Position numbers and translations under genes: made by a program
Shown here: in pieces, positions 1,805 to 24,832 of the stretch
Layout: every line of letters begins with the position of its first letter
Numbering within the stretch: position 1 is the stretch's first letter
From: Opitutaceae bacterium
GTDB taxonomy: Bacteria > Verrucomicrobiota > Verrucomicrobiia > Opitutales > Opitutaceae
Length of the DNA: 44,728 nt
Assembly (NCBI GenBank): GCA_016794625.1
Contig: JAEUGY010000048.1
Location: forward strand, 1-44,728
Direction of reading: 5' to 3'
The notes under the pieces: generated by a model
Database searches by the model: none
Seen by the model: only the letters and a program-made list of their open reading frames with translations
What the model was told of the DNA's origin: nothing

Positions 1805-3403
<1,599 letters not shown>

Positions 3404-3495
3404 GGTAAAAAACGAAGACGAACGGTGCGGACAAAAAGAAACAGCCGGCGACCTGAACCAACGTCAGGTCGGTGCGATCCAAGAACCCTGACTGA

Positions 3496-3970: not shown

Positions 3971-4000
3971 TTGAATCAAAGGAGTTGAGTCCTCGACCGC

Positions 4001-6988: not shown

Positions 6989-7015
6989 ATTCCACTCCAT
7001 CACGAGCTGAACAAA

Positions 7016-7056
7016 AAGGCGGAGCGGACCCGGGTCGCGCTCCGCCTTCCTTGTTT
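7016..7056 (+). terminator. Hairpin terminator after the TonB receptor
   Basis: Ten-bp perfect arms AAGGCGGAGC (7016-7025) and GCTCCGCCTT (7039-7048) are followed by CCTTGTTT. An A run precedes the stem, so it could act in both directions. It lies 28 nt after the receptor stop and separates this gene from the GH130-led cluster. Confidence 0.75.
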
Positions 7057-7084
7057 CCAAACGGCAACCTCTCCCTCCATCCCT

Positions 7085-8122
7085 ATGATTCTGCCCACCG
7101 ACTTCCAACTGCGCCGCCATCCGGCGAACCCCATCCTCGGGCCCAACCCGGCCCATTCCTGGGAATCGCTCGTCGCAACGAATCCGGCCGCCTGGTATGA
7201 CGAGGCCGCGGGGGAGGTCTTGCTGCTCTATCGCTGCGCCGGCAATGACGACGATCATGTCGTCCATCTCGCGCTGGCCCGGAGCAAGGATGGCGTGCAT
7301 TTCACCCGCGACGCCTCCGTGCCCGTCGCCTCGCCGATCCCGCACACGCCCGACGGCGGGTGCCTCGAAGATCCGCGCATCATCAAGATCGGCGAGTGGT
7401 ACTACGTGACCGTCGCTTCGCGGCCTTTCCCCCCGGGGAGATATTGGGATCCGGCTTCCTTGGCCACCCGGGTACACCTGACGTTTCCCTCACATTTTCC
7501 GGCAGCCCTCAGGCAAAACCTGACCTCGACCCATCTCTTCCTGACGAAGGACTTCAAGTCCTGGATTCGGGCGGGACGACTGACTGATCCATCGCTGGAC
7601 GAACGCGACGTCGTGATTTTCCCTGAGACCATCGGGGGAAAGTGGGTCACACTGCATCGGCCGATGCAGTGGCATGGAAAGGGGTTCCCCAGCGAGCAGC
7701 CAGCAATCTGGATCGCTGCCACCGATGACGTCCTTGGCTGGAAGCAACTCAAACTCCTCGCCAAAGCCGAGTTTGAATGGGAGAAAAAAGTGGGCGCGAA
7801 CAACCCGCCGCTACGCACTCCTCACGGTTGGCTGCAGATTTACCACGCGGTCGGCCCGGACAAGCATTACCGACTGGGCGCCCTTCTTCTCGACCTGCAG
7901 GATCCTTTCAAGGTCACCCACCGAACGCGCCGGCCGATCTATGAACCGGTCGCGGACTGGGAGACCAAGGGACTTTACAATGGCGTCTGCTTCCCGTGCG
8001 GTCACGCCGTCCTGAACGGCGTCTACCACCTCTATTACGGCGGCGGTGACGTGGTTTGCGGCCTGGCGACCGCTTCGCTTGACGACCTGGTCGATGCGCT
8101 CTTGAAGCAGCCTGTCGTGTGA
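7085..8122 (+). CDS. GH130 family glycoside phosphorylase/hydrolase (mannoside-active type)
   Basis: A 345-residue five-bladed beta-propeller enzyme of the GH130 type. Seen: the N-terminal HPANPILGP, GGCLEDPRI with the likely catalytic Asp at residue 96, ERDVVIFPE, a LHRPM segment, and YHLYYGGGDVVCGLA near the C-terminus. Characterised members cleave beta-mannosides, many by phosphorolysis to mannose-1-phosphate and some by hydrolysis; the sequence alone does not settle which. No signal peptide, so cytoplasmic. It is the first gene of the cluster, and with the GH2 beta-mannosidase downstream it suggests that mannose is in the imported substrate. Start ATG 7085 lies shortly after the receptor terminator. 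Confidence 0.87.
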   Translation: MILPTDFQLRRHPANPILGPNPAHSWESLVATNPAAWYDEAAGEVLLLYRCAGNDDDHVVHLALARSKDGVHFTRDASVPVASPIPHTPDGGCLEDPRIIKIGEWYYVTVASRPFPPGRYWDPASLATRVHLTFPSHFPAALRQNLTSTHLFLTKDFKSWIRAGRLTDPSLDERDVVIFPETIGGKWVTLHRPMQWHGKGFPSEQPAIWIAATDDVLGWKQLKLLAKAEFEWEKKVGANNPPLRTPHGWLQIYHAVGPDKHYRLGALLLDLQDPFKVTHRTRRPIYEPVADWETKGLYNGVCFPCGHAVLNGVYHLYYGGGDVVCGLATASLDDLVDALLKQPVV

Positions 8123-8138
8123 GGCAGCGTGATTCACG

Positions 8139-9248
8139 ATGCATCCGAGCCCTGATCTTGGCCCGGTTCTTCGTCACCGGGCCTCGCTTCACCGGTCCCG
8201 GGCCGCGCTGAACCGGGGTGGGCTCACCCTCGGTTTTCTCGGCGGGTCGATCACCGCGCCGAAAACCGGCACCCGCTGGCCCGAGCCGCTGATCGGCTGG
8301 CTGACTCAGCGCTATCCGTCGATGCGCCTACGGGTGGAGAACGCCGCGCTGGGCGCCACCGGCAGCGATCTTGGGGTCTTCCGTGCCGGTTCGGAAATCA
8401 TCGCCCGCGGCTGCGACATCGTCTTGGTCGAATACGCCGTCAACGATGTCGGCCAGCCCACCGAACGGCGCAACCGGACTCGTGAAGGGTTGCTCCGCCA
8501 GTTGCTGGCGGCGGGTTGCGACGTGGTCAACGTGTACACGTTCTGTCCGGAAATGCTGGTGGACATGGAGGCCGGGCGGGTGCCGCCAACGATCGCCGAA
8601 TTTGAGGTCCTTGCCGGACACTATGGCATCGGTTCGGTCTGGATGGGGCTGCACGCGTGGACCGAGGTGCAGCGCGGGCTGATGACGTGGTCGGAGTGGC
8701 TGCCGGACGGTTTGCACCCGGAGAGTCGGGGCAGTTTGAGTTACGCCCAAAGTGTGATCGCGTTTTGCGAAGCCGCGTGGAACCCGCCGCCGAACCCGGC
8801 CGTCGCACCGGTGCCCACGGCGCTGCCTGCCGCTCTGCACGAGGGTTGCTGGGAGAAAGTGAATCTGTTGCCCTTGGAACAGCCGGAGTGCACCGGCCCC
8901 TGGTCGTGGCAGCGCTGGTGGACATGCCTGGGAGTGACACGCGTGCTTCACACCACGGCACCCGGCTCGCGGTTGCGTTTCAGCTTCCACGGCCGCGGCT
9001 TGGTGCTCGGGTTCGATTTCGGCCGATCGTCCGGCGAGGTGCGTTTCCGGGTGGACCAAGGCGAGTGGGTCACTACGCAGCGCGAACGTCCGGATTGGGT
9101 AGGTGACTCGGGCTGGTTCCGGCCGACCGTCGTCGCCGACGATCTCGTCCCGGGCTCCCACCTCTTCGAACTCGAAACGCTTACGTCGCTCCACGCCGGC
9201 CGTTTGGGCTCAACCACCACGCTCGCCTTCTTTGGCATCCTGCAATGA
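8139..9248 (+). CDS. SGNH/GDSL hydrolase with C-terminal beta-rich domain
   Basis: A 369-residue protein. The N-terminal half (about residues 25-215) is an SGNH hydrolase: FLGGSIT provides the nucleophile Ser, a Gly-containing NAALGATGSD block follows, VEYAVNDVG holds the block III Asn and DGLHPES holds the Asp-x-x-His pair. The C-terminal part (about 230-369) is rich in beta-strands and aromatic residues and may be a substrate-binding jelly roll. Members of this superfamily are mostly carbohydrate esterases, so deacetylation of the cluster's oligosaccharide is likely. No signal peptide is seen. It follows GH130 by 16 bp and overlaps the next gene by ATGA. Family is sure; substrate is inferred. 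Confidence 0.82.
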   Translation: MHPSPDLGPVLRHRASLHRSRAALNRGGLTLGFLGGSITAPKTGTRWPEPLIGWLTQRYPSMRLRVENAALGATGSDLGVFRAGSEIIARGCDIVLVEYAVNDVGQPTERRNRTREGLLRQLLAAGCDVVNVYTFCPEMLVDMEAGRVPPTIAEFEVLAGHYGIGSVWMGLHAWTEVQRGLMTWSEWLPDGLHPESRGSLSYAQSVIAFCEAAWNPPPNPAVAPVPTALPAALHEGCWEKVNLLPLEQPECTGPWSWQRWWTCLGVTRVLHTTAPGSRLRFSFHGRGLVLGFDFGRSSGEVRFRVDQGEWVTTQRERPDWVGDSGWFRPTVVADDLVPGSHLFELETLTSLHAGRLGSTTTLAFFGILQ

Positions 9249-12200
9249 AGGCGCGACTGGCAGCCATCGGACCCGCCCTGGTATTCGCGTCGACCGTGTT
9301 GCTGGTGTCCATCGCGCCGGCGCAGACCACCGACGACTACGCGGCGGTTCGAGCCCGGCTTCGCGCTGCTCAGACCGGCGGCGACCGCCTGGATGCCAAC
9401 GATCCGGTTCTGGCAGCCAAAGTCTCCGCGCTCAACAATAGCGCTCAAACCCACTGGAACAACCTGAACAAGGCGTCCGCACGCACCCTCCTCTGGAGCG
9501 ACCTGACGATTTCCCCGACAAAGTCTGACACGATCACCCCCGTGTTTGAACGCCTCAAGACCCTTGCGGCCGCCTTCGCAACGCCGGGGGCCGCACTCAA
9601 GGGCAACCCCGCGCTCCGCGACGACATCGTCTCCGGCTTGGAGTGGCTCAACCGCAATCACTACAGCCTAGGTCGGTCGTATTACGACAACTGGTTCCCG
9701 TGGCACCTCGCGGTACCACTCAACCTCGTCGACATTTTCGCCTGCCTCCACGACGGTCTCGATGCCCAAACGCGGATCCGGCTCTATGCCGCCTACGCGT
9801 CCGCGGTTGATTTCTATCAAGCCAGTGCCGGCCCCACCTATGCCAACACCGGGGCCAATCGCGTCTGGCGCTCGCGCATCGACGTTGGTCTTGGTGCCGC
9901 GCTCGAAAGCGCCCCGCGCCTCGCCAGCGGTCGGGATAAACTCTCGGTCGTCCTCCCGTACGTGACCATCGGTGACGGTTTCTACGCGGACGGTTCATTC
10001 ATCCAGCATAACACCCATAGCTACACCGGCGGCTACGGTCTTTACCTGATCAGCGAGCTTTCCGCCGTCCTCGAAGCCATCGCCGCCACCCCTTGGGCGG
10101 TGACGGATTCCAATGTGGCCAATGTGTTCCGCTGGGTCGACGAGGCCTACGCGCCGGTGATGTTCCGCGGTGCGATCATGGACTGCACCCGTGGTCGGGA
10201 AATCTCGCGGGCGGGATCGACCGACCACGCCTCCGGCCATCCGACCCTGACCGCCATCGCGCGCGTCGCCCAATTCGCTGAGCCCGCCGCGGCGGCGCGT
10301 CTCCGCTCGCGGATCAAAGGTCAACTCCAGTCCGACGTTTTCCGGAATTTCCTGAACACCGTCGGACTGTCGGCGGCGGGCCTGGTCAAACCAATCCTCG
10401 ATGACCCCACGTTGCCCGCCGCGCCCGCCCTCACCGGCTGTTTCGTATTCTCCGGCATGGACCGCGTGGTTCATCATCGCGGCTCCTGGGCCTACGCAGT
10501 CAGCCTATCTTCGAAACGGATTTCCAAATACGAGAGCATCAACGCAGAGAACCTCCGGGGGTGGCACCTCGGTGACGGAGCCGCATACCTCTACAATGGA
10601 GATCTTGGACACTACGCCGACCAATACTGGCCGACCGCAGATCCCTACCGCCTCGCAGGCATCACGGTCGACAAGCGAACCCGGACCAACGCCGGCACCA
10701 GCAGCCCCAACACCATCGATCCCCGCACCACCCGGGCGTGGGTCGGAGGTTCCACGGTGCTCGGCGAATTCGGCAGCGCTGGCATGGATCATGAGGCGGC
10801 GCAATCCGACCTCCGCGCCAGAAAATCCTGGTTCTTCTTTGACAACGAGGTCGTTCAACTCGGTGCTGGCATCGTCACGAGCACGGCGAACCCCCACCGC
10901 GTCGAGACCATCGTCGAACATCGTCAGCTCACCGCTGCAGGCAGCAGCGGTCCCGCCACGTTCACCGCCAACGGCGTCGTCCGTGCGGCCCTTCCCGCCG
11001 CCCAGGAGTCGCTCGACGCGGTCCGTTACGCTCACCTCGCCCTGCCGAAGCTGGCCGCGTACGGCAACGCCGACATCGGTTACGTTTTCCCGACCGGCCC
11101 TGTCCTCCATGTTCTCCGCGAGGCTCGAACCGGTAGCTACAATCTCATCAACCAGGGTCCGTTCACCAATTCCAACAACCAGACGCGGTCCTATCTGACC
11201 CTTTGGTTCGATCATGGCGCTGAACTCACCGGCAGCGGCGCCGCTTACGCCTACGTCGTTCTCCCTGGAGCGAGTGCGACTCAAACCGCCGCCTACTCAC
11301 AGACTCCCGACGTTGAGATCCTCGTCAACACGATCCATGTCCAGGCGGTTCGCGATCGAAAGCTCAGGGCCACGGGCATCAATTTTTGGTCCGCAGGCAC
11401 GGTGGATGGCATCGTCTGTGACCAGCCAGCCTCCCTCACCCTTCTTGAGCGCGAGGGACAACTTCACCTCGGGTTCTCTGATCCGACGCAGGAAACCACC
11501 ACCGCTGTCACGCTTGAGTTCCCTTATTCGGGAGTGTCCGTCGTCGCTCGAGATCCCCTCGTCACGGTCCTCTCTCTTTCCCCGCGCCTGCGTCTGAGTT
11601 TCGCCGTCGCTGGTACACGCGGTCGGAGCCTCGCGGTCGTCGTCCAACTCAGAGGGACACCGTCCTCCGCGCCCGTTGTCCGGCAAAACCCCTCCCCACT
11701 CGCACTTCCCGCCGGTTCGACCGCCGCCTTCAATGTCGGCGTCGCCGCCGAACCCGCGCCTTCGTATCAGTGGAGTAAGAACGGCGCGCCGGTTGCAGGT
11801 GCGACCTCCGACACCCTCATCCTGAGTGGCATCACCGCAAGCGACGCCGGCGACTACACCTGCACCCTCACCAACCCACTGGGCACTGTGACCACGCGGC
11901 CCGCCTCACTTGAGCTCACCACGCCACCCGCCAGCCCCACCCGCCTCACCAATCTCTCCGTGCGCAGCCTCGCCGGCACCGGTGCGCAAACGCTCACGGT
12001 CGGCTTTGTCATCGGCCGTGGGGAGGTGCCCGCGGATTCGAAATCCCTCCTCCTTCGGGGAATCGGTCCAACCTTGGCCGCCTTCGGTTTGGCCGCCCCG
12101 CTCGCCGACCCCTCGGTCACTCTGTTCGCTGAACAGACCAAACTATCGTCGAATGACGATTGGGCCGGTGAGCCGCTGATTGCCGCGGCAAGCGCGTCGG

Positions 12201-12754
12201 TCGGCGCCTTCCCCTTGGCCGGCCCCACGAGCAAGGACGCCGCACTTGTCCGCTCCGGCATGGGGGCCGGGGCGTACACCCTCCAGATCAGCGGCCCGGA
12301 ATCCGGAGTCGCCCTCGGCGAAATCTACGACACCACGCCCGGAGCGGCATTTACCCCCACAACCTCGCGTTTGATCAACGTCTCCGCACGCAGCTTCGTA
12401 GGCGTTGGGGGCGACCGTCTCATCACCGGATTCGTCATCGCCGGGCTTTCCCCGCAGACCGTCTTGGTGCGCGCCATCGGTGGCACGCTCGCTGCCTTCG
12501 GCGTCGCTGGGTCGCTCGACAACCCCCGGCTGGAGCTCTTTTCCGGCTCGACCAAGTTGCTTGAGAACGACGACTGGTCCGGCAATCCCTCCCTCTCGTC
12601 GACAGCGGCGCGCGTCGGAGCCTTCATCCTGCCAGTCGCGTCTAAGGACGCGGCGCTGGTTGCCACCCTCCCACCCGGGGCCTACACCGCGCAAGTCACC
12701 GGCGTGGCCGAAACCACTGGCATCGCCCTTGTCGAAGTATACGAAGTCCCATGA
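9245..12754 (+). CDS. Secreted polysaccharide lyase family 8 with Ig-like domain and two C-terminal repeats
   Basis: A large secreted lyase of 1,169 residues. Signal peptide at 1-27; PL8 alpha/alpha toroid plus beta-sandwich modules to about 790; an Ig-like domain (about 805-898, with YQWSKNGAPV and DAGDYTCTLTNPLG); then two homologous repeats at about 899-1040 and 1041-1169, each with a GFVI, TLAAFG, NDDW, SKDAAL, GAYT order. Catalytic residues fit PL8: Asn205 (NTGANR), His255 (GSFIQH) and Tyr264 (TGGYG), with spacing identical to the N349/H399/Y408 set of Streptococcus pneumoniae hyaluronate lyase. PL8 enzymes act by beta-elimination on hyaluronan, chondroitin, xanthan or related uronic-acid polymers; which one cannot be read here. 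Starts within the preceding stop (ATGA). Confidence 0.9.
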   Translation: MKARLAAIGPALVFASTVLLVSIAPAQTTDDYAAVRARLRAAQTGGDRLDANDPVLAAKVSALNNSAQTHWNNLNKASARTLLWSDLTISPTKSDTITPVFERLKTLAAAFATPGAALKGNPALRDDIVSGLEWLNRNHYSLGRSYYDNWFPWHLAVPLNLVDIFACLHDGLDAQTRIRLYAAYASAVDFYQASAGPTYANTGANRVWRSRIDVGLGAALESAPRLASGRDKLSVVLPYVTIGDGFYADGSFIQHNTHSYTGGYGLYLISELSAVLEAIAATPWAVTDSNVANVFRWVDEAYAPVMFRGAIMDCTRGREISRAGSTDHASGHPTLTAIARVAQFAEPAAAARLRSRIKGQLQSDVFRNFLNTVGLSAAGLVKPILDDPTLPAAPALTGCFVFSGMDRVVHHRGSWAYAVSLSSKRISKYESINAENLRGWHLGDGAAYLYNGDLGHYADQYWPTADPYRLAGITVDKRTRTNAGTSSPNTIDPRTTRAWVGGSTVLGEFGSAGMDHEAAQSDLRARKSWFFFDNEVVQLGAGIVTSTANPHRVETIVEHRQLTAAGSSGPATFTANGVVRAALPAAQESLDAVRYAHLALPKLAAYGNADIGYVFPTGPVLHVLREARTGSYNLINQGPFTNSNNQTRSYLTLWFDHGAELTGSGAAYAYVVLPGASATQTAAYSQTPDVEILVNTIHVQAVRDRKLRATGINFWSAGTVDGIVCDQPASLTLLEREGQLHLGFSDPTQETTTAVTLEFPYSGVSVVARDPLVTVLSLSPRLRLSFAVAGTRGRSLAVVVQLRGTPSSAPVVRQNPSPLALPAGSTAAFNVGVAAEPAPSYQWSKNGAPVAGATSDTLILSGITASDAGDYTCTLTNPLGTVTTRPASLELTTPPASPTRLTNLSVRSLAGTGAQTLTVGFVIGRGEVPADSKSLLLRGIGPTLAAFGLAAPLADPSVTLFAEQTKLSSNDDWAGEPLIAAASASVGAFPLAGPTSKDAALVRSGMGAGAYTLQISGPESGVALGEIYDTTPGAAFTPTTSRLINVSARSFVGVGGDRLITGFVIAGLSPQTVLVRAIGGTLAAFGVAGSLDNPRLELFSGSTKLLENDDWSGNPSLSSTAARVGAFILPVASKDAALVATLPPGAYTAQVTGVAETTGIALVEVYEVP

Positions 12755-14676
12755 CAACTCTCCCTCTATTTTCATACCGCGGAAGACCGTTGACTACCTT
12801 GCTCCTTTTCTCCGCCGCCTTGTTCTCCGCCAGCTTCGCGGCGGACACACCGCCCCGAGTCGATTCTTCGGAGTGGCTGAAGGAAGTCGCCGCGGCCCTG
12901 CCCGAGGAGCCTCGCGGATGGGGCGCCCGCGCCACCGATCGTGATCTTTGGACGCGGGCCGCCGCGACCGTGCCGGCAGCGGAGTTGATCGCCGCCGCAC
13001 TCGAGGCAGCCAAGACTCCAACGCCCGCCCTACCGGACGAGCTCTACCTCCGCTACTCGCGCGATGGAAACCGCGTCGAGTACCAAAGGGCAAATCTCGT
13101 TCGCATGGGACGCGTCAACTTGTTCGCCTGGGCCGAGGGCGTGGAACACCGGGGTCGTTTTCTGCCCGCTCTCGCTCGCGAGATCGAGGCCATGCTGGAA
13201 GAAAGGACCTGGGTGCTGCCGGCGCACGATCCCAACCTGAACAATTTTGAGGGTCGCTGGACGGAAGTGGATTTGATGGTCGCGATGAAAGGCTGGTCCC
13301 TCGCCACGGTCGCCTACTGGCATGCTGAAGCGTTGCCTCCTGCATTGCTGGAAAAACTGCGGGCCGAGCTGGAGCGCCGCGTGATCCGGCCGTTCCTCTC
13401 CGTCGCGCGCGGAGGACCGGGAAGCGACGGCATGTGGTGGCTGCGGGGTGACAACAACTGGAACTCCGTCTGCCACGCAGGGGTCGTCGGCACGGCGCTC
13501 GCGATCGTGCGATCGAGACAGGAGCGCGCTGAGGTCGTCCGCCACGCGGCGGTCAACCTCGAGTACTTCCTGCGCGGCTTCACGCCCGACGGCTATTGCA
13601 GCGAGGGAATCGGCTATTGGAACTATGGATTCGGTCACTTCACGATGGTGTCGGAAACCCTGGCCGACGCGACGGGCGGCCGCGTGCGGCCGTTGGCGGG
13701 CGATCATGCCTTGCGTGTCGCGGGTTACCCGGCGGGATTTCAGATCCTTTCCGGCGTGTATCCTGCATTTGCTGACATGGACGTGAAGGACCGGCCATCG
13801 AGCTGGTTCGGTGCGCTCGCCGTTCGCCAGGTCTTCCCCAAGCCTCTCGGCATGAAGGTTTGGAATTTGACAGTCAACGACCTGCGATCCCTGCAAACCT
13901 ACGAGGCCGCGATGAAGGTCTTCATGCCCCTGGCAACCGCCGGCCTGCCACCGGCGCCGGCGCCACGCATCCAGGCGTCTCATCACTGGTTCGCCGACGC
14001 CCAGGTCTACACTGGGCGCGCGTCCCCGACGTTCGGCGCCGCCATCAAGGGCGGCCACAATGCCGAACAACACAATCACAACGACCTCGGCTCGTACGTC
14101 GTCGCCGCCGGTGACCGGGCCGTGCTGGTCGATCCCGGGCTCGAAGTCTACACTGCGCGCACCTTCGGGCCGGATCGCTATGTTTCGAAGGTCTTGAGCT
14201 CCTACGGCCACGCAGTCCCGGTGGTGGCGGGACAGTTGCAGCAGCCTGGCCGGGAATTCGCCGCGAAGGTGGTCTCAACCGCCTTCAGCGAGAAGGAGGA
14301 CACCGTGGTCCTGGATCTGAGCAAGGCCTACGCGGTGCCAACACTCAAATCCCTGATCCGCTCCTTCACCCTGCGCCGCCAGCCGAAGGCGGAGATCGTC
14401 GTCACCGACACCGTGGAATTCTTCGAGCCCGCCGCATTCGAGACCGCGCTCATCACCTTCGAGAAGTGGCGGGAGCGCAAACCCGGCCAGCTGACCGTGG
14501 GCGAGGGCGCATCCGCTCTGAAGGTGGAAGTCAAGGTGGAGGGCGGCTCGTGGAAACTCCGCCCTGAGCTGCTGCAGGAGGATCTGCCGGCCGGTCGCAT
14601 TCCCACCCGCCTCGGCCTGACCATGGATACGACCCTTCGCTCCGCAACCATCGCGGTCAGGATCTCTCCCAACTGA
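12751..14676 (+). CDS. Heparinase II/III-family polysaccharide lyase
   Basis: A 641-residue secreted protein with a signal peptide (hydrophobic LLLFSAALFSASFA ending around residue 31), an alpha/alpha toroid and a C-terminal heparinase II/III-like beta-sandwich. Seen: RGDNNWNSVCHAGVVGTAL, EGIGYWNYGFGHF in the toroid and GGHNAEQHNHNDLGSY with AVLVDPG in the beta domain, where the His-Asn block normally contributes to catalysis or metal binding. Relatives cleave heparan, alginate or other uronic-acid polymers by beta-elimination. The ATG overlaps the stop of the PL8 gene. Two different lyases back to back suggest sequential attack on one polymer. The exact PL family number cannot be assigned by eye. 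Confidence 0.83.
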   Translation: MTTLPLFSYRGRPLTTLLLFSAALFSASFAADTPPRVDSSEWLKEVAAALPEEPRGWGARATDRDLWTRAAATVPAAELIAAALEAAKTPTPALPDELYLRYSRDGNRVEYQRANLVRMGRVNLFAWAEGVEHRGRFLPALAREIEAMLEERTWVLPAHDPNLNNFEGRWTEVDLMVAMKGWSLATVAYWHAEALPPALLEKLRAELERRVIRPFLSVARGGPGSDGMWWLRGDNNWNSVCHAGVVGTALAIVRSRQERAEVVRHAAVNLEYFLRGFTPDGYCSEGIGYWNYGFGHFTMVSETLADATGGRVRPLAGDHALRVAGYPAGFQILSGVYPAFADMDVKDRPSSWFGALAVRQVFPKPLGMKVWNLTVNDLRSLQTYEAAMKVFMPLATAGLPPAPAPRIQASHHWFADAQVYTGRASPTFGAAIKGGHNAEQHNHNDLGSYVVAAGDRAVLVDPGLEVYTARTFGPDRYVSKVLSSYGHAVPVVAGQLQQPGREFAAKVVSTAFSEKEDTVVLDLSKAYAVPTLKSLIRSFTLRRQPKAEIVVTDTVEFFEPAAFETALITFEKWRERKPGQLTVGEGASALKVEVKVEGGSWKLRPELLQEDLPAGRIPTRLGLTMDTTLRSATIAVRISPN

Positions 14677-14718
14677 AGCGTCACGGTTGGGGCGAAAACC
14701 GGATCACTGCGAAAGAGT

Positions 14719-16701
14719 ATGCCTACCCTCGACCTCTCCAACATACCTTGGGTCCTCACCGGTTGGCGCCCCTTTGCCTGGAAGCTGCGGCAGTCCGCCG
14801 AGACCGGTGGTTTCCTTTTGCCCGACCATGGACCCTTTCCAGCCCGGTTGCCTGGCAGTGTGCAGGAGAACCTGCGCCGCGCGGGGGAAATTCCTGATTG
14901 GCACATCGGCCGCAATTCGCTCGCCATCGAATGGATTGAGCATCGGCACTGGATGTTCTCCGCGGAACTCCCGCCGCTCGCCTGCGTCGGCGCGTCGTCC
15001 GTCGTCTTTCGGGCCGAGGTGCTGGATCACCATGGCTGGGTTCTGCTCAATGGAGCGGTGGTCGGGGAGTTTTGTGGATCCCACCGGCCGGCCGCGATTG
15101 ACCTGGGCAATTCCCTGGCGATGCCTGGGCCGCATCAGTTGGCGATCGTCTTTGCTTTGCCGCCGGAGGGACAGGGCCAGATGGGCTCCACGTTAAAGGC
15201 GATCGACTTCAAGCCGCGCTACAGCTTCGGCTGGGACTGGTGCGTGCGGATGGTGCCAATCGGTGCCGGCGGGCGTCTCGAGCTGGAAACGAAAGAGTCG
15301 CCCGCGCCACCCGCACTCCTCGGAACGGTCACCGACGTTTCGGCGGATTTGGCCCAGGGCACCGTGTCCTTCACTGTAATCGCGGGCGATGCGAAACCGG
15401 ACCACGAGGTCAGGGCAACCGTGGGACGGCACGGCCGGACGTTGGCCTCGTCCCTGACTCCGCTGGCGACGGGCGAACAACGTCTGGACCTCACGGTCGA
15501 AGACCCGGAACTTTGGTGGCCCTGTGGCGAGGGGACCCAGCCGCTCTACGACGTGGAAGTCGCCGTGACCTGCGGCGGCCAGATTGTCAGGGAATGGACC
15601 CGCAGGGTCGGCTTCAAGCGCGTGGAATGGCGCCCCTGCGCGGGGGCCCCGGTCGGCGCGCTGCCGTGGCTCTGCATCGTCAACGGACGGGCGATCTTTC
15701 TCCAGGGGGTCAATTGGACTCCGGTCCGCATGGGGTACATGGATACCACCATCGAGGAGATCGAGCGCCTAGTTTCGCTTTACGAGGGGATGGGCTGCAA
15801 CCTGCTTCGCGTCTGGGGCGGCGGTCACCTGGAGACACCGGAGTTTTATGCCGCCTGTGATCGGGCGGGTCTGATGGTCTGGCAGGAGTTTCCGCTGAGC
15901 TCCTCGGGGATCGACAGTAGCCCGCCCTCCGCCCCGGAATTCGTGGCCGAACTGGTTGAGGTGGCCCGGCACTACCTCCGCTCCCGCCAGCACCACGCCT
16001 GCCTGCTGATGTGGTGCGGTGGAAACGAGCTGCATCACGATGAACTCTTCCTTGGAGGCAAGCGTCGGATCCCGTTGACGCTCGAACACCCCGCACTGAC
16101 CGCGCTGGCGGCTTTGGTGTCGGTGGAGGATCCATGCCATCGCTTTCTTCCGACATCGCCCTACGGCCCGCGCTTTCACTCCGTGCGCGAGGAGTTTGGC
16201 CAGGGACTGCATCATGAGGTCCACGGCCCGTGGGGACTGGACGGCCACCTGCAGCCGGGGGAATGGGAAGCGTATTGGCGTGATGACGATGCGCTTTTCC
16301 GTGGTGAAACCGGTGTGGCGGGAGCCAGCAGCCTCGCGCTCATCCGCCGCTACGCCGGAGGTGAAGCCACCTGGCCTCCCGGGAGCGCCCTGTGGCAACA
16401 TTCGTCCGGGTGGTGGACGCAGGCGAACCGACTCGGGGCCCGCTTCGCGAGCCTTAGCGGGGACGACGCCTTGGCGGCCTACGTGGAATTCACGCGCCGC
16501 GAGCAGGCTGAAAAGCTGGCCTGCGCGGTGCGGGCCAAAAAAGCACAATTCCCGCGTTGCGGCGGGTTCCTCATCTGGATGGGCCACGATGCCTTCCCCT
16601 GCCTTGCCAACACCTCGTTGATCGAGTTTGACCACCGCCTCAAGCCCGCGGCCCACGCCATCGCGGCGGTTTTTCACACTCGACCCGGTTCCCTTTCATG
16701 A
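14719..16701 (+). CDS. GH2 beta-mannosidase-like glycoside hydrolase
   Basis: A 660-residue GH2 enzyme with N-terminal sugar-binding fold (WHIGRNSLAIEW, DFKPRYSFGWDWCVR), an immunoglobulin-like middle domain ending ELWWPCGEGTQPLYDV, and a TIM barrel. The barrel shows GVNWTPVRMGYMD, NLLRVWGGGHLETPEFY, the acid/base Glu437 in WCGGNELHHDE and the probable nucleophile Glu530 in FRGETGV. The DWCVR and WCGGNE motifs are typical of beta-mannosidases. It is shorter than the usual 800-900 residues because the C-terminal beta domains are missing or reduced. No signal peptide, so a cytoplasmic exo-enzyme releasing mannose from imported oligosaccharides is likely. The stop overlaps the sulfatase start (ATGA). 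Confidence 0.88.
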   Translation: MPTLDLSNIPWVLTGWRPFAWKLRQSAETGGFLLPDHGPFPARLPGSVQENLRRAGEIPDWHIGRNSLAIEWIEHRHWMFSAELPPLACVGASSVVFRAEVLDHHGWVLLNGAVVGEFCGSHRPAAIDLGNSLAMPGPHQLAIVFALPPEGQGQMGSTLKAIDFKPRYSFGWDWCVRMVPIGAGGRLELETKESPAPPALLGTVTDVSADLAQGTVSFTVIAGDAKPDHEVRATVGRHGRTLASSLTPLATGEQRLDLTVEDPELWWPCGEGTQPLYDVEVAVTCGGQIVREWTRRVGFKRVEWRPCAGAPVGALPWLCIVNGRAIFLQGVNWTPVRMGYMDTTIEEIERLVSLYEGMGCNLLRVWGGGHLETPEFYAACDRAGLMVWQEFPLSSSGIDSSPPSAPEFVAELVEVARHYLRSRQHHACLLMWCGGNELHHDELFLGGKRRIPLTLEHPALTALAALVSVEDPCHRFLPTSPYGPRFHSVREEFGQGLHHEVHGPWGLDGHLQPGEWEAYWRDDDALFRGETGVAGASSLALIRRYAGGEATWPPGSALWQHSSGWWTQANRLGARFASLSGDDALAAYVEFTRREQAEKLACAVRAKKAQFPRCGGFLIWMGHDAFPCLANTSLIEFDHRLKPAAHAIAAVFHTRPGSLS

Positions 16702-18059
16702 AACGTGTGTCCCTCGCAATTGCCTGTGTCCTTTTCGCTTCCACTTCTTGTGCCGCACAGCCCGCGCAGCGTCCGAACGTCATAGTGATCGTGACCGACG
16801 ACCAGCGTTTCGACGCCCTTGGCGTGGTGCAGCGCGAACAGGGCGACGCAGCCCGCTTTCCGTTTTTCCAGACTCCAAACCTCGACCGCCTGGCCGCTGA
16901 AGGGGCACGTTTCCGCAACGCGTTCGTGACGCATTCGCTCTGCTCGCCGAGCCGCGCCTCAATGCTCAGTGGAAAGCAGACCTTTGCCCACGGCATCCGG
17001 GACAACCGTACCCCGTTTCGTTCGGAGCACACTTGGGCGCATGCCTTGCGGGACGCCGGTTACCGGACTGGATACTTTGGCAAATGGCACATGGGAAAGC
17101 AGGAGGATCGCCCGGGTTTCACGGACACGTTCACCTTCGTCGACCAAGGCGTTTATCCCAACTGCCGATTCCTTGAGAACGGTGTTAGTGTAGATACGAA
17201 GGGCTGGGTCGATGATGTTACGACGGACCGGGCGATCGCCTATATCCGAGCAAACCGCGGGCAGCCGTTCGCGATGTTTGTCGGTTTCAAGACCCCGCAC
17301 GATGTCCGCACGCCGGCCCCGCGCCATGCCCCGCGCTACGCCGACGTCAGCATCGAGCCTCCAGTGAATCGTCATGCGCGGCCGCCATTTCCCGCCCCGC
17401 CCGCCAAGCCATGGAATCCGCGCGTGCCGGACACGTTAAACTATTTTCGCTGCCTGCAAGGCATGGACGACAACATCGGACGGGTGCTCGACACGCTGGC
17501 TGCCACCGGCCTTTCCGACGACACCTTGATCATTTTCGCCAGCGACAACGGCTACTATCTGGGTGAGCACGGGCTCGGCGACAAGCGCTCCGCTTACGAG
17601 GAGAGCATCCGCATTCCGTTACTCGTGCGCTATCCGCGCGTCGTGCGGGCAGGCCTGCTGATCGACGCGCTGGCCCTCAATTTGGACCTCACCGCCACCA
17701 TCATGGAATACGCGGGCGTGCCGGTCAGGTGGTCCCAACAGGGTCGCAGTCTGGCGCCCCTGCTGAGCGGCACGACGCCCGCCGACTGGCGACGTGACTT
17801 CTTCTACGAGAACTACCGGGATCCGGAGTATCCGGACGTGACCTTCGACCTCGTCGCGATACGGACTGAGCGGGCCAAGCGGGTGGAATACCCCGGGCAT
17901 CCGGAGTGGACGCAGGTCTTCGACCTGGTCGCGGATACCCACGAGCTGCAAAATCTCGTGGCGGAGCCGACCGCGGCCGATTTAATCAATGATTTACGGA
18001 TGCGGCTCGGTGTGTTCAAGCGTCAGGCCGGAATGACTGGCGCCCCAGTGCTGCCATGA
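16698..18059 (+). CDS. Secreted S1-family sulfatase
   Basis: A 453-residue formylglycine-dependent sulfatase. Signal peptide at residues 1-20 (cut near CAAQ). Metal-binding Asp34/Asp35 lie in VTDDQRFDALG. The activation motif C-x-P-x-R is CSPSR with Cys82 as the residue converted to formylglycine. Further conserved blocks are GYRTGYFGKWHMGK, FVGFKTPHDV, ASDNGYYLGEHG and KRSAYEESIRIPLLVRYP. It hydrolyses sulfate esters, here probably on a polysaccharide outside the cytoplasm. The anaerobic or aerobic maturase gene is not in the window. The short 453-residue form is complete. It overlaps both neighbours by ATGA, so it is translationally coupled with the GH2 and dehydrogenase genes. Confidence 0.92.
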   Translation: MKRVSLAIACVLFASTSCAAQPAQRPNVIVIVTDDQRFDALGVVQREQGDAARFPFFQTPNLDRLAAEGARFRNAFVTHSLCSPSRASMLSGKQTFAHGIRDNRTPFRSEHTWAHALRDAGYRTGYFGKWHMGKQEDRPGFTDTFTFVDQGVYPNCRFLENGVSVDTKGWVDDVTTDRAIAYIRANRGQPFAMFVGFKTPHDVRTPAPRHAPRYADVSIEPPVNRHARPPFPAPPAKPWNPRVPDTLNYFRCLQGMDDNIGRVLDTLAATGLSDDTLIIFASDNGYYLGEHGLGDKRSAYEESIRIPLLVRYPRVVRAGLLIDALALNLDLTATIMEYAGVPVRWSQQGRSLAPLLSGTTPADWRRDFFYENYRDPEYPDVTFDLVAIRTERAKRVEYPGHPEWTQVFDLVADTHELQNLVAEPTAADLINDLRMRLGVFKRQAGMTGAPVLP

Positions 18060-19081
18060 ATCATCCATCTCTAACAAGATACCGCTCCAAGCCAGGTACC
18101 GCGCTGGCTTTTCGTGCCGAACTGCTGCCTTGGTTGTTTCCACCCTCCGGGCGGGCCGCGATTGAGCGGCAGGTTGTACTGCTAACGCCTCCGTTCACTG
18201 CCGTCGATTGGCAGACTCACCGCGCCCAACTGGCCGAAGCAGAAATTTTGGTGGGCAGCTGGGGCATTCCGGTGCTCGACCGGGAAATTCTCGAGGCTAT
18301 GCCAAAACTGCGTGTGGTGCTCTACGGTGCTGGCAGCGTCCGGGGCTTCGTAACGGACGAATTCTGGCGGCGGGATATTCTGCTTTCCAGTGCGGCCAGC
18401 GCGAACGCCGGCCCGACGGCGATTTTCGCCGAGGCGATGATCATCCTCGCGCTCAAACAGACCTGGTTTTACCTGAGGCGAGGTGTGACCGACTGGGCCT
18501 ACCTCTCCGACACTGCGTCCTCAGGGGTGCATGCCGCCACCGTTGGCATCATCGGACTTAGCAGCGTCGGTCGGTTGGTGATCAAGGGGCTTCAGCGCCA
18601 CGAGCTCAGGATTCTGGCCTTTGATCCGACGGTGACGGCCGAGGAAGCCACCCGACTGGGCGTGGAACTTGCGGAATTACCCGAACTGTTTGAGCGTTGC
18701 GACGTCGTTTCGCTGCACGCTCCGCTGCTGCCGCAGACGATCGGATTGGTCGGGGCGGATCACTTGCGGCGGATGAAACCGCATGCGACTTTTGTGAACA
18801 CCGCTCGGGGCGCCATCGTGCGTGAAGCCGAATTAGTGACCGTGCTGAAGGAACGACCTGATCTGACGGCCTTGCTCGACGTAACCGATCCGGAGCCGGC
18901 CCCTGCGGACTCTCCGTTGCGCAAGCTGCCCAACGCGGTCCTGACGCCGCATATAGCCGGGGCCCGCCACCGCGAAATTGAACTTGTCGGGGGGCTTGTG
19001 CGGGAGGAGCTCGATCGTTACCTCGCAGGGCAGCCGCTTCGCTTTGCACTGGATCGGGCCCGCGTGGTCCGCATCGCCTAG
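18056..19081 (+). CDS. D-isomer-specific 2-hydroxyacid dehydrogenase (NAD-dependent type)
   Basis: A 341-residue cytoplasmic oxidoreductase. The nucleotide-binding turn reads VGIIGLSSVGRLV, with Ser where the second Gly of GxGxxG is usual. The catalytic trio is present: Arg in NTARGAIVRE, Glu in DVTDPEP and His in LTPHIAGA. Family members interconvert 2-keto and D-2-hydroxy acids with NAD(P). In this cluster it could act on an acidic product of uronic-acid catabolism, but the substrate cannot be inferred from sequence. It overlaps the sulfatase stop by ATGA and precedes the MFS gene by 23 bp. The altered glycine motif deserves note but occurs elsewhere in the family. Confidence 0.85.
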   Translation: MNHPSLTRYRSKPGTALAFRAELLPWLFPPSGRAAIERQVVLLTPPFTAVDWQTHRAQLAEAEILVGSWGIPVLDREILEAMPKLRVVLYGAGSVRGFVTDEFWRRDILLSSAASANAGPTAIFAEAMIILALKQTWFYLRRGVTDWAYLSDTASSGVHAATVGIIGLSSVGRLVIKGLQRHELRILAFDPTVTAEEATRLGVELAELPELFERCDVVSLHAPLLPQTIGLVGADHLRRMKPHATFVNTARGAIVREAELVTVLKERPDLTALLDVTDPEPAPADSPLRKLPNAVLTPHIAGARHREIELVGGLVREELDRYLAGQPLRFALDRARVVRIA

Positions 19082-19104
19082 GCCCCATCCGCAACCCCTT
19101 TACC

Positions 19105-20478
19105 ATGCTACCCCATCGCTCGCCCATACCGCACTCCGGCGGCAAAAAAGTCTGGTCGGTTGGTACTCTGACCTACACGGCAAGCGGTCTAGCGCTGCTG
19201 TTTGTCTGGCTCCTCTTCGGCGATTTTGCCTACATGATGCGCGAGCGATCTGCAGCGCCGGTGACGCAGCTGATGCTCAAGAAATACGAGGCGTCGGATT
19301 TTGTGACCGGGATCTTCCTGCTCACCATTCCTTGGACGGTCATCTTGCTCGCAGGACCGACGGTGAGTTATTGGAGCGACCGATACCGTAGCCGCCGGGG
19401 AAGACGGATCCCCTTTTTGCTGCTGCCCACCCCATTCGTCACCCTCGCCATGATCGGGCTCGCCTTCAGTCCGCGCATGGGTCCGGTGCTGCACCGGCTG
19501 TTCGGCGGAGACCCGGGGACCGTCAACCACACGATACTTCTGACCATGGGGTTTTTCTGGATGGTGTTCGAAATCGGCGTGGTGATCTCGAACTCGGTGT
19601 TTAACGGCCTGATCAACGATGTCGTGCCGCGGGAGTGGCTCGGCCGCTTCTACGGCCTGTTCCGCGCCGTCGGACTCGGGGCTGGCATTCTTTTCAACTA
19701 CAAAATCATCGGCCACGCGGAGGAAAACTATTCCATCATCCTCGCCAGCATCGGCCTCATCTACGGCATCGGATTCACCGTGATGTGTCTGCGCGTAAAG
19801 GAAGGGGACTATCCTCCGCCGCCAGAAAGTTCACCGGCCCATCCGGTGTTGGGCGCGATCGGCGACTACTTCCGCGACTGTTTCAGCAAGCCCTATTATC
19901 TCTGGGTGTTCATTTTTCTGGCACTGGCCAATGTCGCTTTCGTCCCGGTAAACTTGTTCTCCATTTACGCCGCGAAGAGCTTCGGCATGTCGATGGATCT
20001 TTACGGAAAGTACCTCGTGGTGACGTTCATCACTTCATTCCTCCTCGCGTTTCCCTTGGGCTGGCTGGCCGACCGTTTCCATCCGCTGCGGATCGGTCTG
20101 GCCGCATTGCTTCTCTATGCGGTACTGATGGCGATCGGGTTCGTATGGATTCACGACCTGAAGTCTTTCGGTTTCGTCTTCCTGGGTCACGGCATTCTCT
20201 CCGGCACATTCTTCACGGGCACCGCCGCGATCGCCCAGCTGCTTTTTCCCAAGCTGAAATTCGCGCAGTTCGCCGCTGCCGCAGGTCTTATCGCGGCGTT
20301 TTTCAACATGGTGCTGGGTCCAGTGCTCGGTGCGGTGCTTGACAGGCTGGGCAGCGACTATCGCTACACCTTTCTGGCCGGGAGCATGCTCGCCGTAGTC
20401 TCGCTCGGACTGGGATTGTTCGTTCACCGGCGCTGGCAACAGCACGGGGGCGCGAAGGCCTATATCGCGCCGGAGTGA
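19105..20478 (+). CDS. MFS transporter (sugar:cation symporter-like)
   Basis: A 457-residue polytopic inner-membrane protein with about 12 hydrophobic segments. Features seen: a first helix after WSVGTLTYTASGLALLFVWL, a loop with SYWSDRYRSRRGRRIPFLLL (the basic MFS loop 2-3 signature seen in glycoside-pentoside-hexuronide-like carriers), a long central polar loop near LRVKEGDYPPPPE between the two six-helix halves, and a second-half GWLADRFHPLRIG equivalent. It probably imports the mono- or oligosaccharide products made by the exported lyases and sulfatase. It sits between the dehydrogenase and the Tat-exported protein, with gaps of 23 and 6 bp. Substrate and coupling ion are inferred. Confidence 0.85.
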   Translation: MLPHRSPIPHSGGKKVWSVGTLTYTASGLALLFVWLLFGDFAYMMRERSAAPVTQLMLKKYEASDFVTGIFLLTIPWTVILLAGPTVSYWSDRYRSRRGRRIPFLLLPTPFVTLAMIGLAFSPRMGPVLHRLFGGDPGTVNHTILLTMGFFWMVFEIGVVISNSVFNGLINDVVPREWLGRFYGLFRAVGLGAGILFNYKIIGHAEENYSIILASIGLIYGIGFTVMCLRVKEGDYPPPPESSPAHPVLGAIGDYFRDCFSKPYYLWVFIFLALANVAFVPVNLFSIYAAKSFGMSMDLYGKYLVVTFITSFLLAFPLGWLADRFHPLRIGLAALLLYAVLMAIGFVWIHDLKSFGFVFLGHGILSGTFFTGTAAIAQLLFPKLKFAQFAAAAGLIAAFFNMVLGPVLGAVLDRLGSDYRYTFLAGSMLAVVSLGLGLFVHRRWQQHGGAKAYIAPE

Positions 20479-20484
20479 TCTGGC

Positions 20485-21672
20485 ATGCACCGTCCCTACC
20501 TTTCCCGCCGCCAGTTTCTTCTCGGCACGTCCGCGCTGTCCGCGGCCCCTTGCCTCACGAGCTCCGCGGAATCGGCGAACGCCGAGGTGCGGCGATTGAT
20601 CGAAGCTCATCGACCCTCGCGCCGCACAGACACGCCCCCGCCGTACCGTGACGTGTTCGGCACGACACTGGTCGACGGGAAGTACTTTCTGACCTCGAAA
20701 CCAAATCTGATCGAGGGGGCGGAGAAGATGCTCGAACTCGGCACGCGGGTCGGAAAATTCTGGTTCGAGCCCGGCCGGGCGGCCCGCGACAATCCGTGGA
20801 ACAGCGATTGGCGGGTAATGGCGACGCTCCGGGATCTGGCGGCCAGTTCTTATTGGCACTCCGTTTTCCGGCTTCCGTTCACGACCCTGATGTTGATTGC
20901 CCACAGTCCCAACGAACGGGGCTGGAATGCCGATCATCCGGAGGCCTACTACCAGCGCATCACGACCGATTGGGCGGAATTGGTCGGCTACCTTTACGAG
21001 ACCCTGAGCGAGCGGCCTCTTACGATCATTCTGCAAAACTGGGAGGGAGACTGGCAACTGCGCGGAACAGGCGTGCTTTGGGAAACGCCTCCGCCCGACT
21101 GGCACAATCGCTGCGTGCGATATGCACGCCGGCTGGCCGCCCGGCAGGAGGGCGTGAACCGGGCCCGCGCCGCCGCGCCCGTCGGCAGTCGGCTCAGGGT
21201 CGGGCACGCGGCCGAGGTTAATCGGGTGGTGGACGGCTGGAAGGGTATTCCGACCATGGCTGAGCATGTGCTGCCCCTCGTCGAGGTCGACCTTGTCTCC
21301 TACAGTTGCTACGACGCCATGGAGAACGGCCTTACCTTGGTCCGCGCGATCGAAACCATCCGTCGATTCGCCCGCACGGGCCCGGACTTCGGTCCGGGGG
21401 CGGTTTATCTCGGAGAGATCGGTATCCCCGAGAACGTGCACCCGGAACATATCGCTGAGCGCTGGGACGAACTGCTCGGGGCGGCGCTCTCCGCCCGAAT
21501 GCTTTATGTCGCACAATGGCAGCTCTACTGCAACGAACTCGACCCACGGACCACTCCCCATCCGTCGCCGCCAATTTGGGATCCGAGGTACTTGCGCGGC
21601 TTCTGGCTCATTCGACCGGATGGCTCCCTGAGTGAAACGGGCGTCTACTTCCGTCAACTGTGGCAACTATGA
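20485..21672 (+). CDS. Tat-exported protein of unknown function, possible TIM-barrel glycoside hydrolase
   Basis: A 395-residue protein with a twin-arginine signal (LSRRQFLLGTSALSAAP) and no family that I recognise. The mature part alternates beta-strand and helix segments as in a TIM barrel: FWFEPGRAARDNPWN, LTIILQNWEGDWQL, VEVDLVSYSCYDAM, AVYLGEIGIPE and LYVAQWQLYCNE. The Glu residues at the ends of predicted strands (NWEGDW, GEIGIPE) would suit an acid/base and nucleophile pair. It ends FWLIRPDGSLSETGVYFRQLW, resembling the tail of cellulase-like hydrolases. Position inside a polysaccharide operon makes a glycoside hydrolase role likely, but this is inference. The stop overlaps the next start (ATGA). 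Confidence 0.7.
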   Translation: MHRPYLSRRQFLLGTSALSAAPCLTSSAESANAEVRRLIEAHRPSRRTDTPPPYRDVFGTTLVDGKYFLTSKPNLIEGAEKMLELGTRVGKFWFEPGRAARDNPWNSDWRVMATLRDLAASSYWHSVFRLPFTTLMLIAHSPNERGWNADHPEAYYQRITTDWAELVGYLYETLSERPLTIILQNWEGDWQLRGTGVLWETPPPDWHNRCVRYARRLAARQEGVNRARAAAPVGSRLRVGHAAEVNRVVDGWKGIPTMAEHVLPLVEVDLVSYSCYDAMENGLTLVRAIETIRRFARTGPDFGPGAVYLGEIGIPENVHPEHIAERWDELLGAALSARMLYVAQWQLYCNELDPRTTPHPSPPIWDPRYLRGFWLIRPDGSLSETGVYFRQLWQL

Positions 21673-22322
21673 CCTCACCAATCCAGATTCCCGCCAATTC
21701 AGTGCTGCTTTTCCAAGGTGACTCTATCACCGACTGTTCGCGCGACCGCACGCGCAACGGGCCCAACGATCCGGCCGCACTCGGCGCCGGCTACGTTGGT
21801 CGGATCGCCGGCGATCTGCTGGCGCTGCGTCCGGGCGCCGGGTGGAAATTCTACAATCGCGGCATCAGTGGCGACCGCAGCGTCGATTTGCTGGGACGTT
21901 GGCGCCGCGATACGCTCGCCTTGCAGCCGGATGTCGTGAGCATTTTGGTCGGCGTCAACGACACCTGGCATGAACATCTAGCCGGCAACGGCATCGACGT
22001 TCCGCGGTACGCCGCATTTTATAGGATGCTCCTGGCGGATACCCAACAGGCTCGACCTGGAGTTCGCCTCATCCTCGGTGAACCCTTTGCCCTGCCGGGC
22101 GGCGAATTTAAAGACACTTGGATGGATGAACTCCACCACAGAGCTGACGCCGTGCGTGAGTTGGCTAAGGAGTTCGGTGCAGCCTTCGTGCCTTACCAAG
22201 GCATGTTCGACGCAGCGCGGAAGCGATACTCCGCGACCGAACTGGCGGCAGACGGCGTGCATCCTTCGCCGCTGGGTCACCAGCTGATGGCTCAAGCCTG
22301 GCGTGAGGCCGCCTGCCTGTAA
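21669..22322 (+). CDS. SGNH/GDSL esterase
   Basis: A 217-residue single-domain SGNH hydrolase. All four blocks are present: FQGDSITDC with Ser19, NRGISGDRS with the block II Gly, VSILVGVNDTW with the block III Asn, and DGVHPSPLGH with Asp and His. No signal peptide is seen, so it should act in the cytoplasm, probably removing acetyl or similar esters from imported sugars. The ATG at 21669 lies in an ATGA overlap with the previous stop; a GTG at 21660 is also in frame and would add three residues. It is the last gene of the plus-strand cluster and faces the GH3 gene. Family certain, substrate unknown. Confidence 0.88.
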   Translation: MTSPIQIPANSVLLFQGDSITDCSRDRTRNGPNDPAALGAGYVGRIAGDLLALRPGAGWKFYNRGISGDRSVDLLGRWRRDTLALQPDVVSILVGVNDTWHEHLAGNGIDVPRYAAFYRMLLADTQQARPGVRLILGEPFALPGGEFKDTWMDELHHRADAVRELAKEFGAAFVPYQGMFDAARKRYSATELAADGVHPSPLGHQLMAQAWREAACL

Positions 22323-24519: not shown

Positions 24520-24832
24520 GGGATGCGGCTTCCCGGCGGAACCAGCGATAAGCCGATAGTGCGCCAACCTGTGCGATGCCCCCCGCGAACAGCCACCAAA
24601 GACGCTGGATGCCGAGGCCGCGCACCGTCTCCGTGGCGGCCACCGGCGTAGCGGAGGCAAAACGGGTCGCTGCCGGCGAGACGCCATTGATCCACCAGGG
24701 CGCACTACGGCAGCCCAGGAAATGGCTCGTGCTGTTCTTTCCCGCGTGGCGGCTCAACCCCAGGCCAAGGTCAAGGGACACCCGCAGATAGGCGTCGATG
24801 ACAGAGTGGTTGATCCAGTGCAGAGGTCTCAT
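24509..24832 (-). CDS. Short ORF upstream of and overlapping GH3, unrecognised
   Basis: A 107-residue ORF on the minus strand whose stop overlaps the proposed GH3 start by 11 nt. The C-terminal part (LWWLFAGGIAQVGALSAYRWF) looks like a membrane helix with a basic flank; the N-terminal part is mixed and could be the remnant of a longer protein. No ribosome-binding site is evident before the ATG at 24832, and an in-frame stop lies 18 nt upstream. I do not recognise a family. It may be a gene fragment or a small membrane protein coupled to GH3; it may also be spurious. Confidence 0.35.
   Translation of the reverse strand: MRPLHWINHSVIDAYLRVSLDLGLGLSRHAGKNSTSHFLGCRSAPWWINGVSPAATRFASATPVAATETVRGLGIQRLWWLFAGGIAQVGALSAYRWFRREAASLAH

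Follow-up and report, generated by a model that had tools for sequence, protein, structure and literature searches.

The window, i.e., the whole stretch of 44,728 nucleotides analysed here, is contig C74 of the 6.4-Mb, 127-contig genome of an Opitutaceae bacterium (G000), and it carries a gene locus for which we propose a role in the utilisation of an acidic polysaccharide. The centre of the locus is formed by ten open reading frames (ORFs) at positions 7085 to 22322, all on the same strand. Neighbouring ORFs overlap by the four bases ATGA at 9245, 12751, 16698, 18056, and 21669, and the other four gaps within the run measure 16, 42, 23, and 6 bases. The ten co-directional genes and five overlaps had been reported in a preliminary description of the sequence, and all were found in the ORF coordinates. 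That description, however, took the ten genes for the entire unit, and the locus is larger: a TonB-dependent receptor lies upstream, a GH3 glycosidase and a LacI-family regulator lie downstream, and the run is the core of an Opitutaceae catabolic locus extending from about 4544 to 26428 (Table 1). What the analysis chiefly adds is a predicted regulon, a lyase slot with alternating occupants, and gene 9 of the run, which has no assigned family.

The 30 ORFs of the window, some of which are probably not genes, were scanned with Pfam and NCBIfam models. Secretion was judged by eye from the N-termini, and 252 genomes of the family served as comparison set, the codes G001 to G218, etc., denoting relatives. 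Searches of the open-access PMC literature listed no description of this locus.

Table 1. Features of the locus in the window, with coordinates and supporting matches.
Feature	Position	Strand	Evidence
Operator-like site upstream of TonB	4544..4565	+	Best site in the window, 19.7 bits, held-out motif from nine relatives
TonB-dependent receptor	4691..6988	+	PF07715 Plug, 48.2 bits; ORF opens at 4580, 4691 is the first in-frame ATG past the operator
Gene 1, GH130 beta-mannoside phosphorylase-like	7085..8122	+	PF04041, 130.4 bits; nearest structure 9fj8
Gene 2, GDSL/SGNH hydrolase-like, probable esterase	8139..9248	+	PF13472, 36.7 bits (cut-off 32.9)
Gene 3, PL8 lyase with Ig domain and Opitutaceae C-terminal repeat	9245..12754	+	PF08124, PF02278, PF02884
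Gene 4, PL33-type lyase	12751..14676	+	PL33 structures 8r75 and 8r6z, about 6e-40
Gene 5, GH2 beta-mannosidase-like	14719..16701	+	PF22666, PF00703, PF02836; 5n6u, 3.6e-41
Gene 6, S1 sulfatase, CSPSR motif	16698..18059	+	PF00884, 173 bits; 5g2v, 6.1e-70
Gene 7, D-2-hydroxyacid dehydrogenase family	18056..19081	+	PF02826, 155 bits
Gene 8, MFS transporter	19105..20478	+	PF07690, PF13347
Gene 9, conserved protein without known family, TAT-like start; candidate glycosidase	20485..21672	+	Invariant motifs in nine members
Gene 10, GDSL/SGNH hydrolase, probable esterase	21669..22322	+	PF13472, 98 bits
GH3 beta-glycosidase, start codon uncertain	22378..24705	-	PF00933, PF01915
Second operator-like site, GH3/LacI gap	25014..25035	+	Second-best site in the window, 19.6 bits, held-out motif
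LacI-family regulator	25373..26428	+	PF00356, 48.2 bits

Uncharacterised loci of largely the same composition are found in G205, G218, and G204. Their order is TonB receptor, GH130, LacI, GDSL, PL33-type lyase, GH5 (in G205 and G204), GH2, S1 sulfatase, 2-hydroxyacid dehydrogenase, MFS transporter, a 476-residue protein, and gene 9; a second GDSL gene (GDSLb) and GH3 follow further on in G205 and G204, where the stretch reaches them. TonB receptor, GH130, GDSL, PL33-type lyase, GH2, sulfatase, dehydrogenase, transporter, and gene 9 are thus shared with the window in a common order, and the core proteins are 54-87% identical. In contrast to the window, these loci lack PL8, carry LacI inside the run rather than beyond GH3, and contain the 476-residue protein, an ABC exporter, and, in G205 and G204, the GH5 gene, which is nearest to endoglucanase and endomannanase/endoglucanase structures. 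In G205 (L082, 1283-2710; L102, 14494-16293), the 476-residue protein shows a weak DUF455 match and the ABC exporter precedes gene 9; the window has neither of the two. A GH10 pair is located between GDSLb and GH3 in G204, and a DUF1961/LamG protein is encoded near the locus in G205 and G218.

The lyase position is occupied differently among the relatives. PL8 without a PL33-type lyase occurs in G034 (SSF, TonB, GH130, LacI, GDSL, PL8, GH2) and in G183, whose contig starts inside GH130 and continues with LacI, GDSL, PL8, and GH2. G153 retains a PL8 remnant (L172, 9362-9643), about the first 107 residues between LacI and GH2 running in frame into a short C-terminal end; either part of the gene was deleted or the contig, from a bin with 6% contamination, is misassembled. 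A PL33-type lyase without PL8 is found together with the full core in G205, G218, and G204, and furthermore in G006 (TonB, GH130, lyase) and in G152, G163, and G170 (TonB, LacI, lyase). In G160, such a lyase and part of LacI stand at the end of a contig; in G161, a 65-residue lyase match lies next to TonB and LacI. For the g7 genomes (G152, G163, G160, G170, and G161), in which GH130 and GH2 were not seen, assignment to the same locus relies on TonB, LacI, and the operator described below. PL33-type relatives in G187, G169, and G023 stand without the TonB/LacI pair and were left out of the locus count.

Among the loci compared, only the window holds both lyases. At E 1e-30, PL8 is present in 21 of the 252 genomes, and those with PL33-only loci, G205, G218, G204, and G006 included, are not among them; heparinase-like matches in G034, G183, and G153 are distant only (best E 4e-15 to 4e-13, with 4e-15 in G034 and 2.1e-13 in G183). 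PL8 and PL33-type lyases therefore look like alternative occupants of one slot, and since they alternate there, they probably cut the same polymer. The pairing of two lyase families in the preliminary description holds for the window itself but is not fixed, as relatives carry one or the other. The claim of alternation is limited to this locus: a strict genome-wide alternation was rejected because G156, G196, G200, and others encode lyases of both kinds, PL8 and heparinase-like, at other places and with lower identity. As a separate observation, G023 (L086, 159-5914) shows three URO-D-family genes upstream of GDSL, the PL33-type lyase, and MFS.

The window PL8 is 79% identical to its counterparts in G034 and G183, the other shared non-TonB genes 61-72%. 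GH130, GH2, LacI, and GDSL are nearer to G205; the TonB receptor is nearest in G153 and the g7 genomes (76-82%, in loci with the same regulator; 54-56% to G205, G218, G204, and G034). Since the nearest relatives differ gene by gene, we regard the window locus as a mosaic. A recent foreign origin of PL8 was considered and rejected, its GC content at third codon positions (0.755-0.782) lying inside the range of the locus (0.69-0.81).

Gene 3 encodes a protein with the three PL8 domains, in which the catalytic residues N205, H255, and Y264 are kept. Its five best solved structures are xanthan lyases (2e24, 1.1e-165), followed by chondroitin AC lyase (2.4e-103) and hyaluronate lyases (from 2.8e-78), in agreement with the earlier view that the target is not simple hyaluronan or chondroitin; the best NCBIfam model, hyaluronate lyase HylB, reaches 424.5 bits, far under its cut-off of 1350. 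Named relatives found via gene 3 are mostly Opitutaceae for the tail region and Bacteroidota, at 24-28%, for the catalytic part. With the xanthan lyases of Bacillus sp. GL1 and Paenibacillus (2e24, 6f2p) the protein shares the PL8 domains, the catalytic Asn/His/Tyr, and the equivalent of R313 (R322), but it differs by G324 and G638 in place of Y315 and R612, by the Ig domain, and by the Opitutaceae C-terminal repeat. R313, Y315, and R612 are presumably contacts of pyruvated mannose (a literature text naming them was not found), and on that assumption gene 3 lacks the signature of a pyruvate-specific xanthan lyase. Among 20 Opitutaceae PL8 rows of at least 38% identity, not one has Tyr/Arg at Y315/R612, and 19 have R313; this absence is thus the rule and not peculiar to gene 3. 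The C-terminal part (about residues 900-1169) was rejected as a shared substrate-binding module, since numerous other Opitutaceae loci devoid of these lyases have it too. The repeat follows the PL33-type lyase in g7 genomes as well, and we regard it as serving export or anchoring in general.

Gene 4 scores 20.0 bits with the Pfam heparinase II/III-like model, under the cut-off of 24, and is assigned to PL33 by structure matches (about 6e-40, compared with 1e-19 for PL35) and by conserved residues. Its N236, Y289, H441, Y467, and F472 correspond to N238, Y291, H444, Y470, and F475, of which the first three are given as invariant in PL33 and the last two as present in all sequences analysed (PMC11848413, in excerpt). 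The equivalents of R103 and H154 are also kept in the alignment, so that all seven PL33 residues checked, each described there as invariant or nearly so, are present, as in BtPL33HA and the PL33_2 enzymes of Opitutaceae strain TAV5, which include the gellan and chondroitin cutters. According to the same excerpt, PL33_2 is marked by Val replacing Trp at the -1 subsite; the residue is unnumbered in that passage, and we take it to be W242, where gene 4 has V240. In contrast to BtPL33HA and the TAV5 enzymes, gene 4 is matched at about 6e-40 to solved PL33_1 enzymes and falls into a clade of its own with 12 rows, to which the four G014 paralogues in the tree, 34-36% identical, do not belong (quick tree, SH-aLRT support only).

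A 22-base motif was derived from nine sites upstream of TonB (G205, G218, G204, G006, G034, G153, G152, G163, and G170), with the window held out. Its two best sites in the window precede the TonB start codon and lie in the GH3/LacI gap; the third, at 22576 and inside GH3, reaches 14.9 bits. Of 300 first-order Markov sequences, three had a best site that attained 19.6 bits and none a second-best site of that score, and a smaller control set of 20 sequences gave a maximum of 17.4. Sites outside the motif training were found before SSF in G205 (19.9), G034 (20.2), and G153 (21.3), before TonB in G161 (23.6), and beside lacI in G121 (28.1). The pattern TTTTCRATAAAAGTAA, deduced from both window sites, recurs nowhere else in the genome in exact form; at two mismatches there is a single match, and the reversed control gives none. 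LacI orthologues of at least 58% identity occupy 14 places in 14 of the 252 genomes, the window included, and in G205, G218, G204, G034, G183, and G153 (63-70%) they are located between GH130 and the lyase slot. On this motif evidence, regulator and operator-like sites at the target promoters constitute a predicted LacI regulon.

For gene 9, no Pfam family was found above cut-off (TAT_signal, 17.1 bits, is under its cut-off of 22.7). A profile search of the PDB came back empty up to E 1; another search gave a PDB match at E 0.53, which is taken as chance. A single-sequence AlphaFold2 model was uninformative (mean pLDDT, the predicted local distance difference test, 34.3). A profile comparison with the GH5 proteins of G205 and G204 gave a probability of 0.5% and thus no support for a relationship, though the GE-G motifs happen to align. 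At E 0.001, relatives were found in 5 of the 115 genomes examined for them, and nine members share the invariant N185-W186-E187-G188-D189-W190 (NWEGDW) and G310-E311 (GE-G). A gene 9 relative shares the locus with GH130 at 8 of 17 GH130 places, within 2 kb in contig C48 of the same genome, G001, G197, and G193, and at 12-17 kb in the window, G205, G218, and G204. In the reverse direction, three of the seven stretches fetched from the gene 9 search contain a GH130 relative (the window, C48, and C239 of G001). Judging by the shape of its motifs, gene 9 may be an undescribed glycosidase. The C48 locus (L015, about 2051-14280) comprises a GH130 64% identical to gene 1, two S1 sulfatases, the gene 9 relative, a XylR/AraC-type regulator, and a distant TonB, without lyases; its best motif score, 18.2, falls at an unrelated place. 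C239 of G001 (L016) shows a matching arrangement.

The remaining genes largely bear out the mannosidases, the sulfatase, and the two esterases named in the preliminary description. Gene 1, far above the Pfam cut-off of 26, is nearest to a 1,2-beta-oligomannan phosphorylase (9fj8, 1.1e-45), and for gene 5, 15 of the 33 chains listed, the top-ranked ones, are beta-mannosidase-like. In the 5n6u alignment gene 5 has Glu at both positions that we take to be catalytic, whereas 5n6u has Cys at one. The CSPSR of gene 6 fits C/S-x-P-S-R, presumably the S1 sulfatase motif, and its nearest structure is a GlcNAc-6-sulfatase. Orthologues of gene 2 occur in G205, G218, G204, G034, G183, and G023 (54-69%), of gene 8 in G205, G218, and G204 (72-87%), of gene 10 in G205 (78%) and G204 (74%), and of GH3 in the G205 (83%) and G204 (71%) loci. 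No NCBIfam equivalog was found above cut-off for gene 7; the best models for the TonB receptor are siderophore-receptor types, all under cut-off, so that it is not clearly of SusC type, and the nearest one for GH3 is the beta-xylosidase Xyl3A (708 bits, below the cut-off of 1250). Signal-like starts are seen in PL8, the PL33-type lyase, the sulfatase, and gene 9 (twin-arginine, TAT-like), and not in GH130, GH2, both SGNH proteins, and the dehydrogenase.

The sequence itself shows the gene content, the common gene order, the operator motif, the alternating slot, and the retained catalytic residues. We consider it fairly probable that the locus works as a LacI-controlled, SusD-less carbohydrate-utilisation locus of the Opitutaceae, the activities and the inducer being predictions. 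Without substrate, LacI would occupy the operator upstream of TonB and the one in the GH3/lacI gap, and a polymer-derived sugar would release it. Secreted PL8 and PL33-type lyases would act on the acidic polymer by beta-elimination, cleaving at 4-linked glucuronate; trimming outside the cell or in the periplasm would fall to the sulfatase and perhaps gene 9. Fragments would be imported by the TonB receptor and the MFS carrier and deacetylated intracellularly by the SGNH proteins; GH2, GH130, and GH3 would then release mannose or mannose-1-phosphate and other sugars in the cell, and the unsaturated uronate could feed a KduI/KduD route encoded elsewhere.

Several observations weigh against this proposal. 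Promoter-like sites (3 versus 2.4 expected) and terminator-like sites (19 versus 16.3) are at background, so that co-transcription is argued from gene spacing. The motif seeds were chosen by eye and stem from related genomes, and the motif is absent near GH130 of G003 (best 11.7) and near the lacI orthologues of G006 (12.3) and G004 (9.9), both of which contain an in-frame stop. No alpha-mannosidase is seen in the window, and SusD, GH88, and GH105 have no match among its 30 ORFs; the SusD-like lipoprotein of a SusCD-type polysaccharide utilisation locus is thus absent there. The preliminary description had noted the lack of SusD and of GH88/GH105 and Kdg genes; for the uronate genes this is correct for the window and not for the genome, where other contigs hold two GH88-family places above cut-off (C80 and C10) and two KduI-family places (C80 and C114), with KduI and KduD at equivalog level (KduD on C80). 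The GH88, KduD, and KduI genes of C80 are accompanied by a GH28 domain and lack an operator of this kind (best score 7.4), and hence probably serve pectin. Nothing ties the uronate genes of the other contigs to our locus, although their products could handle its unsaturated uronate. The C80 group (L019, 5048-13280) is of pectin type and consists of KduI, KduD, DUF4861, a GH88-GH28 fusion, MFS, and DctP.

With regard to the substrate, the lyases point to 4-linked glucuronate, GH130 and GH2 to beta-mannosides, the two SGNH proteins to esters, and the S1 enzyme to sulfate or a sulfate-like ester. The substrate is probably an acetylated, gum-like acidic heteropolysaccharide with glucuronate and beta-mannose, and any single named polymer has a low probability. 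The acidic mannose/uronate polymer proposed earlier is in accordance with lyases, beta-mannoside enzymes, sulfatase, and esterases; diatom glucuronomannan, in contrast, fits poorly.

A glycosaminoglycan (chondroitin or hyaluronan) locus, whose mannoside enzymes would serve an attached glycan or a side job, is unlikely. Gut Bacteroides combine PL8, PL33, and S1 sulfatases in one pathway against glycosaminoglycans (PMC12877422, in excerpt), chondroitin sulfate is a substrate of one Opitutaceae PL33_2 enzyme (PMC11848413, in excerpt), and the sulfatase of gene 6 has the GlcNAc-6-sulfatase affinity given above. However, the PL8 is much nearer to xanthan lyase than to chondroitin AC and hyaluronate lyases, and unlike the Bacteroides loci, the window locus lacks a SusCD pair and GH88 and has mannoside enzymes and LacI. 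GH130, GH2, and the two SGNH proteins, the first three of which are kept in relatives, would be left unexplained.

A strict xanthan locus, in which PL8 would remove terminal pyruvated mannose and the other genes would take the rest, is quite unlikely, even though xanthan lyases head the structures for gene 3, one pair of relative loci adds a GH5 of endoglucanase/endomannanase type, and a GH38-family gene is present on C10. The equivalents of Y315 and R612, to which we attribute a role in pyruvate recognition, are Gly. The xanthan clusters of Microbacterium XT11 and R.UCG13 likewise contain PL8 and GH3 or esterases, but in contrast to such characterised systems (PMC10881899, in excerpt), the window lacks endoxanthanase, alpha-mannosidase, GH38, GH94, and GH88.

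A locus for gums of the gellan or sphingan type, with the PL33 enzyme at its centre, is distinctly improbable, in spite of the Val at the W242 position taken as the PL33_2 mark. Gellan contains no mannose, and the gene 4 clade is set apart from the four G014 paralogues. In favour of gellan, an Opitutaceae PL33_2 enzyme cuts this polymer (PMC11848413, in excerpt). A sulfated diatom glucuronomannan locus would account for sulfatase, mannose enzymes, and uronate lyases but is extremely improbable, as that polymer has an alpha-1,3-mannose backbone and the loci known for it combine SusCD with many GH92 genes (PMC9723552, in excerpt), whereas the mannoside enzymes of the window are beta-type and GH92 and SusD are unmatched among its ORFs.

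Returning to an acetylated glucuronate/beta-mannose polymer, a more far-reaching version is conceivable but doubtful: an undescribed acidic beta-mannoside gum pathway with interchangeable PL8 and PL33, in which gene 9 represents a new TIM-barrel GH family partnering GH130, with the Glu of NWEGDW and the Glu of GE-G as catalytic pair. If our preferred explanation of the locus is right, two unrelated lyase folds replace each other on one polymer at one conserved locus, and the substrate of an orphan PL8 or PL33 enzyme would become directly testable. Gene 9 would then be a candidate glycosidase family for which no Pfam or PDB relative was found, and the Opitutaceae, here without SusD, would gain a detailed case of gum utilisation switched by LacI.

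Outside the locus, the minus strand of the window encodes a large DUF7133 protein (28586-31948), which is conserved in G006, where SDR and SAICAR synthetase adjoin it.

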